From: Leptotrichia sp. oral taxon 498
GTDB taxonomy: Bacteria > Fusobacteriota > Fusobacteriia > Fusobacteriales > Leptotrichiaceae
Assembly: GCF_002240055.1 (NCBI RefSeq)
Contig: NZ_CP016753.1
Span: 1,674,001 to 1,738,000, forward strand
Reading direction: 5' to 3'
DNA: 64,000 nt
The notes under the pieces were generated by a model, which ran no database searches, was not told where the DNA came from, and saw only the letters and a list, made by a program, of their open reading frames with translations. Below are positions 3,134 through 29,432 of the stretch, piece after piece. The position numbers were made by a program, and so were the translations under genes. Numbering within the stretch: position 1 is the stretch's first letter; each line of letters starts with the position of its first letter.

Positions 3134-3162
3134 TTGAAATGTTAATTAGTTTATGATATAAT
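3134..3162 (+). promoter_or_regulatory. Promoter of candidate antitoxin sRNA
   Basis: -35 TTGAAA (3134-3139), 17-bp spacer, -10 TATAAT (3157-3162). No open reading frame follows before the terminator at 3221-3255. Confidence 0.7.
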
Positions 3163-3168
3163 TACAAT

Positions 3169-3255
3169 AAGAAAAGAAAAACCAACTGTTTCGTTTGGAA
3201 ATAAAAAATTTGCAGAAGAAAAGGCTCTATTCTTTATTGAATGGGGTCTTTTTTT
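3169..3255 (+). ncRNA. Candidate antitoxin sRNA (~87 nt)
   Basis: Defined by a near-consensus promoter (TATAAT at 3157-3162) and a strong intrinsic terminator: a 12-bp stem at 3221-3232/3239-3250 with two G-U pairs, loop TTTATT, then seven T. Bases 3182-3197 can form 16 contiguous pairs (two G-U) with 3295-3310, the start of the Shine-Dalgarno region of the small peptide gene downstream. A diverged copy of this RNA lies at 29.1 kb. The ncRNA call is inference from promoter, terminator, complementarity and repetition. Confidence 0.6.
3221..3255 (+). terminator. Intrinsic terminator of the sRNA, overlapping the next promoter
   Basis: Stem AAGGCTCTATTC (3221-3232) / GAATGGGGTCTT (3239-3250), 6-nt loop and T7. 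The -35 box of the following promoter (TTGAAT, 3237-3242) lies inside this hairpin, so the two units are very tightly packed. Confidence 0.8.
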
Positions 3256-3265
3256 ATGATATAAT
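3237..3265 (+). promoter_or_regulatory. Promoter of the small membrane peptide gene
   Basis: -35 TTGAAT (3237-3242), 17-bp spacer, -10 TATAAT (3260-3265). It overlaps the sRNA terminator. The predicted transcript has a ~50-nt leader before the peptide start. Confidence 0.7.
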
Positions 3266-3322
3266 TACCAAGTTAGTTCTGCAAAACTAACAAACAAATG
3301 GAACAGTTGGGAGGTGGTAAAA

Positions 3323-3439
3323 ATGAATTGGGATTTTACTATTTTTATAGCTATAATCGTATTATTTTTGATTATTAGTAAAAAATGGTTAAAATTCATC
3401 ATCGGTATCACCTTAATGCCTGTCAATCTGTATATTTAG
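3323..3439 (+). CDS. 38-residue hydrophobic peptide, candidate type I toxin
   Basis: A short ORF beginning MNWDFTIFIA and ending PVNLYI, with a single predicted membrane helix (about residues 5-19), then a KKW basic step and a second hydrophobic stretch. The ribosome site GGGAGG (3309-3314) is ideally placed 8 nt before ATG. The gene has its own promoter and a hairpin at its 3' end. Size, hydrophobicity and the complementary upstream sRNA are the hallmarks of type I toxins such as the Fst, TisB or Ldr groups, but I do not recognise the sequence as a named family. It could instead be a harmless regulatory membrane peptide. Confidence 0.6.
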   Translation: MNWDFTIFIAIIVLFLIISKKWLKFIIGITLMPVNLYI

Positions 3440-3450
3440 ATTGGCAGGTT
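3419..3450 (+). terminator. Hairpin at the 3' end of the small peptide gene
   Basis: CCTGTCAATCT (3419-3429) / AGATTGGCAGG (3438-3448), an 11-bp stem with one G-U pair. It overlaps the last codons and stop of the peptide. Only a short T-tract follows, so it may stabilise the 3' end as much as terminate. Confidence 0.6.
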
Positions 3451-29042: not shown

Positions 29043-29106
29043 AATTTATTTTAAAATTTCAGAAAGTTTTTTATTAAATTAAAAAAATGAGCGGTATAAT
29101 AGTTTT

Positions 29107-29183
29107 GAGGAAAAACCAGTTAAGAGGGTAAAAAAAGCAGCAAAAATAAAGACTCTGTTCTTATTGAATAAGGGTCTTTATTT
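29107..29183 (+). ncRNA. Orphan relative of the 3.2-kb antitoxin-like sRNA
   Basis: A -10 TATAAT (29095-29100; -35 weak) precedes a ~77-nt unit that shares blocks with the RNA at 3169-3255: GAGGAAAAACCAGTT, GCAGCAAAA, and the terminator AAGACTCTGTTC...GAATAAGGGTCTTT. No small hydrophobic ORF with a ribosome site follows. It may be a solitary regulatory RNA or the remains of a second toxin-antitoxin unit. After it, to 29432, only a stop-bounded degraded frame ending at ~29372 is seen. Confidence 0.45.
29149..29183 (+). terminator. Terminator of the orphan sRNA
   Basis: AAGACTC (29149-29155) / GGGTCTT (29172-29178) with an inner TTC/GAA pair around the loop, followed by T-rich sequence. Confidence 0.7.
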
Positions 29184-29432
29184 ATTAATTAATTTGTGAA
29201 TCATCTTCAAAAAATTGGACAGATATTTTTGTGTACCACCATTTATTTTCAATAAGCTAATTTTGTCAACACATAAAAATACTCCGTATGAAAAGTGTCG
29301 TGATTTAAAATTGACTTTACTGTTTCCATATGATAGTATTCATATAGAAGAGATTGCTAATTTGAAGACATAAGTCATTTAGTAAATAATAATATTAAAT
29401 TCAAGAAAATAAAAAAGTGAGGAAGTGATTTT

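Follow-up and report, generated by a model that had tools for sequence, protein, structure and literature searches.

A candidate family of parallel type I toxin–antitoxin loci with exchangeable recognition segments in Leptotrichia

The 64,000-nucleotide (nt) stretch of Leptotrichia sp. oral taxon 498 DNA analysed here (the window) carries on its plus strand, at positions 3134-3450, a locus of about 300 bases in which the gene for a predicted small RNA (sRNA) is followed by the gene for a tiny hydrophobic peptide. Our findings indicate that this locus very probably belongs to a family of type I toxin–antitoxin systems, laid out in parallel, that seems not to have been described before. In a comparison of 98 Fusobacteriota genomes, including 13 of the window's genus, the family amounts to about 50 loci, distributed over the 13 Leptotrichia genomes and one genome of a sister genus. 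At the level of sequence, these loci establish the architecture, a covarying complementarity at two contacts, the orthogonality of the pairs, carriage on plasmid-like contigs and the loss of the toxin with the sRNA kept. An earlier note on this DNA had proposed a type I-like arrangement, in which an sRNA would bar ribosomes from the mRNA of a small hydrophobic toxin, and both the complementarity of the arms and the conservation of the small open reading frame (ORF) support that proposal.

The locus is organized around two near-consensus promoters in tandem on one strand, P1 and P2, separated by 103 bp; both had been recognized before, and both are borne out by the sequence and by a promoter scan. 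P1 precedes a non-coding unit of about 87 nt closed by a terminator, and sequence and folding agree with the earlier description of this unit and of the P2 -35 element (3237-3242), which lies within the loop and 3' arm of the sRNA terminator. The terminator stem, previously given as 12 bp, comes to 17 bp on folding. The same organization recurs across the family: the P1 -35 element has TTG and 16-18 nt spacing in 36/37 loci, the P2 -35 element has TTGA and lies inside the terminator in 36/38 loci, and the sRNA is found upstream, on the same strand, in every locus having one, the order being parallel throughout.

In complete loci, the 5' part of the sRNA is complementary to the leader of the toxin mRNA directly before and into the Shine-Dalgarno sequence (SD), and the sequences involved are wholly different between classes (for example CCATTCAGCGTGG/CCACGCTGAATGG, CAATCACGAGG/CCTCGTGATTG and CCAGTTAAAAGGT/ACCTTTTAACTGG). 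The window copy has the 16-bp gapless complementarity reaching the SD that the earlier note described, with 14 Watson-Crick and 2 G-U pairs. Because homologues whose arm sequences are unrelated still show complementarity, the pairing exceeds chance; the arms stay complementary in nearly all loci, as had been anticipated if the proposal was sound. The tests were pairwise and by permutation, since the exchanged arms could not be brought into a MAFFT alignment fit for a full structure model. The arm score of non-redundant loci averages 24.5, and that of 5000 permutations 12.9 +/- 0.64 (maximum 15.6). The cognate duplex averages -31 kcal/mol and in 35/35 loci is stronger than that with any leader from outside the class, so that the RNA–RNA interaction prediction suggested earlier favours the own mRNA throughout. 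Moreover, in the ten genomes with two to six loci, sRNA and mRNA are reciprocal best partners, the smallest margin being 4.3 kcal/mol. A predicted RNA complementary to the toxin mRNA through covarying arms, as expected of a type I antitoxin, is thus present in all 35 loci.

The recognition is not restricted to this arm. The loop of the leader hairpin is complementary to the sRNA segment directly before the terminator (3209-3217 with 3277-3285 in the window), and this second contact also covaries among loci: TTGCA/TGCAA, TGCG/CGCA, TTGTG/CACAA, TAGCG/CGCTA, GGTGAA/TTCACC and GGTCA/TGACC. The mean score of the loop contact is 14.2, as compared to 10.4 +/- 0.42 in 1000 permutations, none of which was as high (maximum 11.8). 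Both this contact and the anti-SD in the 3' untranslated region (UTR) of the toxin mRNA (3406-3414) were absent from the earlier note.

Downstream of the leader, the small ORF of the window (3323-3439) is open for 38 codons. The hydrophobic small ORF reported in the earlier note therefore stands as such, whereas its 38-residue length is not that of the family, in which the stop lies at or near the same position and peptides have 20-24 residues. All six same-site orthologues, from six other genomes of the genus, have TAG at the position of the window TGG (3386-3388), and the 38-codon length is for this reason a private stop-loss of the window genome; the 17 added residues traverse the 3' UTR and the toxin-gene terminator. 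Family peptides consist of one hydrophobic helix with a basic C-terminus (maximum 15-residue hydropathy 2.8-3.3), and the family SD is located 8-9 nt upstream of the ATG. A small hydrophobic peptide with its ribosome-binding site, of the kind that characterizes type I toxins, is thereby conserved over many loci. In two divergent members, L187 and L191 (G011c and G008i), the toxin start is apparently GTG (VISGDFIFAVIIAIIFYFYFSK-like).

Additionally, the toxin mRNA is predicted to fold upon itself. The anti-SD sits directly before the toxin-gene terminator, and pairing of the SD to the 3' UTR is predicted in 19/20 loci versus 46% with shuffled 3' UTRs; the pairing is above chance, partly driven by composition. 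In the predicted folds the SD is thus sequestered by the 3' end of the mRNA, as in hok and aapA, and translation would therefore probably need 3' processing or refolding. As for a transcript that reads from the sRNA into the toxin gene, its predicted fold is very stable and has the arm 1 helix outermost (z -6.5; 0/200 shuffles as stable), which upholds the self-folding claimed earlier. The 'failsafe' role then attached to it does not hold up in the same way: two tandem complementary arms fold so automatically, and for this reason the failsafe is, by sequence alone, inseparable from the arms, a by-product without independent support.

Regarding the distribution of the family, a peptide profile search returned about 35 strong loci in 12/13 genomes of the genus and in one genome of another Leptotrichiaceae genus, with up to 6 toxin homologues per genome; the 13th genome of the genus, G006, has an sRNA-only locus. 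The promoter-in-terminator pattern, together with a covariance model built on the 3' part of the sRNA and the leader hairpin, brought out a second subfamily, in which diverged peptides, among them MINGDIVVFVVMVVVLYLIFSK, MIHQDFIMFIIAVVILYLIFSR and MVRDWLVILLAIVIFYFVFQQNK, occur in an unchanged layout. The combined covariance-model and small-ORF search for the pair, which the earlier note had advised, thereby recovered the roughly 50 loci, and homologous loci have a conserved small ORF after their sRNA, as that note had predicted. Two members reside on plasmid-like contigs: G005e (L143) on G005:C4, of 5413 bp, which encodes Rep_1 and Mob_Pre, and G003d (L218) on G003:C4, of 8150 bp, whose large ORFs resemble, by eye, replication/mobilisation proteins. 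The exact DNA pattern also matches Leptotrichia hongkongensis JMUB5056.

Some matches were discarded. Exact-pattern matches in unrelated bacteria are attributed to chance, and RNA-model matches outside Leptotrichia and the sister genus (G050, G064, G090 and G094) resemble ordinary terminators. The peptide matches G019a and G023, the latter weak, partial and within a 311-aa frame, are not family members. No real match came from viral contigs, PLSDB or phage records, which were searched with the peptide and by pattern; the sole viral-contig pattern match (L271) is a chance hit inside an unrelated ORF.

The genomic site of the window locus is informative about how the family evolves. This site, between GH4 and GH13 genes (Pfam) in a sugar region of the phosphotransferase system (PTS), occurs in four states among 13 genomes: one specificity in G000, G001, G002 and G010; another in G004, G008 and G012; sRNA, terminator and P2 with the toxin gone in G003 and G006, and also in the sister-genus genome G022; and an empty site in G005, G007, G009 and G011. 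Between the two specificities, identity is 97-100% in the upstream flank and P1, 44-46% in the leader and 96-99% in the SD, toxin and 3' UTR. Two unrelated arm pairs thus lie between P1 regions of 100% and toxin regions of 99% identity, so the block responsible for recognition was replaced in one piece.

Loss of the toxin side is likewise recurrent. The decay takes the form of a frameshift in G010e, a same-site orthologue, a truncation in G022b, a lost start in G007d and deletions in G003, G006 and G022; toxin-side decay with the sRNA kept is found also at other loci (G005f, G009d, G010g and again G022b). The sRNA promoter and terminator are conserved, and the sRNA locus persists alone where the toxin is missing.

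These findings allow us to propose a model for the locus. P1 would drive a short antitoxin sRNA, and P2, with its -35 element in the sRNA terminator, the mRNA of a single-helix membrane peptide of 20-24 residues. The sRNA would recognize its own mRNA only, by means of two contacts, the arm up to the SD and the 5' hairpin loop, the second of which may add speed or specificity; in at least one relative the predicted coverage of the arm extends to the start codon. Binding would block ribosome entry and probably expose the duplex to RNase III. As a second lock, the full-length mRNA would also be silenced by pairing of the SD with the 3'-UTR anti-SD, a folding that stands as a prediction. If the locus were lost or transcription stopped, the sRNA would decay first and the peptide would depolarise the membrane. 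Because the sRNA, the toxin promoter and the target leader adjoin, one recombination could swap the whole recognition segment while keeping P1 and the toxin. In this regard, we put forward tentatively, and as slightly less probable than its opposite, the idea that this type I family is adapted to changing its specificity rapidly: its members would be addiction modules, orthogonal to one another, carried by chromosomes and small plasmids, and its toxin-less sRNA loci would confer immunity (anti-addiction) when modules of matching specificity arrive.

A number of observations weigh against a type I system at this locus. The window copy of the toxin has lost its stop codon, and we infer the transcripts, the toxicity, its rescue, the RNA stabilities, the 3' processing and the activation step. 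The longest-run arm score is row-best for the own partner in just 23/35 loci, an effect of arm classes common to related loci and of internal loops that split some arms; the permutation values, in turn, are not strict probabilities, given the phylogenetic relatedness of the loci. A few loci (G011c, G009d and partly G002b) have a weak second contact or none, and the excess of anti-SD pairing over the shuffle control is only moderate. Finally, one locus, G010b (L086, G010:C12, near 60379, minus strand), has an intact toxin ORF, leader and arm without an sRNA gene. Its upstream sequence has been replaced and the P2 -35 element is also lost; it is the only toxin found without an sRNA, and a pattern search of the rest of that genome gave no exact sRNA arm matching it (one single-mismatch site on C3).

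Another reading keeps the RNA mechanism but drops the poison–antidote logic, the product under sRNA control being a small membrane protein that is harmless or serves in signalling; in its favour are that the toxicity of the peptide is putative, that Pfam and NCBIfam family models, including known toxin families, gave no match to the peptide near cut-offs, and that the window copy persists despite its altered C-terminus. We nevertheless consider it improbable, since orthogonal pairs in several copies, members borne on small plasmid-like contigs, translation predicted to be repressed twice over and a product of 20-24 aa with one hydrophobic helix and a basic C-terminus all fit a toxin better; the peptide, moreover, has been lost repeatedly with the sRNA kept, and no intact P2-driven peptide was seen without an sRNA among these loci. 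Less probable still, and rejected, is a single P1 transcript with an attenuator, under riboswitch or leader-type control, in which P2 would be incidental. The tandem layout with a terminator between and the very stable read-through fold are what such a device would show, but P2 is conserved as well as P1, with its -35 element embedded in the terminator, sRNA-only loci persist, and the read-through RNA would silence itself. A conserved sensor sequence is also lacking, as the sensor would have to be the arms, the most variable part, and a search of Rfam 15 with the locus RNA gave nothing at the gathering score, riboswitches included (ohsC was sub-threshold, at 20.4 bits against a threshold of 50). 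To a type III system, in which the RNA binds the toxin protein directly, we give almost no credence, even though the gene order of RNA upstream, terminator and toxin is the same (PMC8167048) and candidate ToxI RNAs upstream of ToxN have been reported from Leptotrichia (PMC8040213). This reading was rejected on the size of the toxin, a 20-24-aa hydrophobic peptide and not a ToxN-type endoribonuclease, on an RNA without tandem repeats and on the second promoter, P2, as the toxin's own; the conserved property of the RNA is, besides, its complementarity to the mRNA.

A different matter is whether the locus is decaying in the window genome, with the sRNA intact and a stop-lost peptide, 17 residues longer, that is no longer toxic. 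The confinement of the stop-loss to this genome, the frequency of toxin-side decay at related loci (G010e, G022b, G007d and G003/G006/G022) and a second relic in the window at about 29095-29190 are consistent with this possibility, while the promoters, the arms, the second contact and the anti-SD are all intact in the window copy and the extra residues may be tolerated. We regard decay as a substantial possibility, somewhat short of an even chance; the stop-lost toxin may be altered or weakened, and decay of this copy is compatible with the type I explanation for the family.

Table. Positions of predicted and observed features in the window
Feature	Position	Strand	Comment
P1, predicted sRNA promoter	3134..3162	+	TTGAAA-N17-TATAAT, extended -10 TG; promoter-scan score 11/12
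Predicted antitoxin sRNA, ~87 nt	3169..3255	+	delimited by P1 and terminator; fold z -3.7
sRNA arm 1 (anti-SD arm)	3182..3197	+	16 bp with 3295-3310; swapped jointly with its partner in homologous loci
sRNA contact 2	3209..3217	+	pairs with leader hairpin loop 3277-3285
sRNA intrinsic terminator	3216..3255	+	17-bp stem 3216-3232/3239-3255, U-tract; kept in alignment A4
P2, predicted toxin mRNA promoter	3237..3265	+	TTGAAT-N17-TATAAT, extended -10 TG; score 10/12
Toxin mRNA leader hairpin	3272..3291	+	loop CTGCAA
mRNA arm targeted by sRNA	3295..3310	+	extends into SD
Shine-Dalgarno GGGAGG	3309..3314	+	from sequence
Core toxin peptide, 21 aa, MNWDFTIFIAIIVLFLIISKK	3323..3385	+	kept in same-site orthologues and paralogues, stop next
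ORF read-through extension	3386..3439	+	codon 22 TGG vs family TAG; 38 aa in this genome only
3'-UTR anti-SD	3406..3414	+	pairs with 3311-3319 in predicted full-length mRNA; z -5.75
Toxin-gene terminator hairpin	3418..3449	+	13-bp stem; T-run short
Probable decayed second sRNA relic, no toxin ORF	29089..29190	+	RNA model match E 6.5e-5; -10 TATAAT at 29095; arm AACCAGTTAAGAGGGT

Further features of the window and of individual loci deserve mention. In same-site copies the toxin-gene terminator has just three T past its stem, and transcription might thus continue into the GH13 gene (start 3488). The arm of the relic, AAAAACCAGTTAAGAGGGT, is near that of G022b, and the relic retains a terminator-like hairpin with TTGAAT and a degraded P2. 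Elsewhere in the genus, L068 (G008:C1:1650000-1652400) comprises two members with different arms, arranged head to tail about 375 bp apart. At L183 (G008:C1:590690) an intact sRNA and leader hairpin stand ahead of a longer, unrelated membrane-protein ORF (MNKLIQNFNYKFKQILFGLLG...), a gene that is perhaps under sRNA control.

The approximately 50 natural pairs with matched specificities constitute a rare resource on the co-evolution of antisense RNA and target, and the family bears on one-step specificity exchange and on why antitoxin RNAs outlive toxins. In addition, a toxin promoter placed in the antitoxin terminator couples the end of one RNA to the start of the following one over a distance of about 30 bases. 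A literature search, whose coverage left out most subscription journals, found no type I toxin–antitoxin system described in Leptotrichia. As regards the layout, the parallel orientation is listed among type I arrangements in a review (PMC8167048), and the layout alone is therefore not unprecedented; the earlier note was right that a tandem order is unusual, but it is not unheard of, type III systems too having their RNA encoded ahead of the toxin on one strand.

The closest parallels are found in ZorO–OrzO, ShoB–OhsC and TisB–IstR-1, in which sRNA and toxin mRNA pair over 18-21 nt (PMC3919570) and which share with the Leptotrichia loci an antitoxin beside the toxin, a short pairing and a tiny hydrophobic toxin; a further likeness is that paralogous pairs are orthogonal through their pairing region, as shown for Zor–Orz. 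Their sRNAs are divergent, however, whereas the Leptotrichia sRNA and toxin are parallel, with the toxin promoter in the sRNA terminator, a contact made of the SD plus a leader hairpin loop, unlike in those systems, and no match of the peptide to their Pfam families. The predicted inert full-length mRNA, its ends joined by SD–anti-SD pairing, recalls hok/Sok and aapA/IsoA; aapA is a multi-copy chromosomal family, and the aapA and hok mRNAs have a long-distance interaction (PMC6733600). In those systems the antitoxins are antisense and overlap the toxin gene, while the Leptotrichia RNAs do not overlap, their pairing is short and two-part, and their 3' processing is presumed from predicted folds. 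Separated RNA–RNA contact sites are shared with Fst/par, where they correspond to direct repeats and the shared terminator, but the par genes are convergent with a bidirectional terminator in common (PMC8167048), unlike the Leptotrichia loci, which also lack an Fst-like peptide. With ToxIN, of type III, the family has in common an antitoxin RNA upstream, on the same strand, and a terminator between; neutralisation of protein by RNA, a single promoter, a repeat RNA and an endoribonuclease toxin were not found here. Three features set the Leptotrichia family apart from these systems: a promoter embedded in a terminator, recognition through two covarying contacts and a specificity block that has been exchanged.
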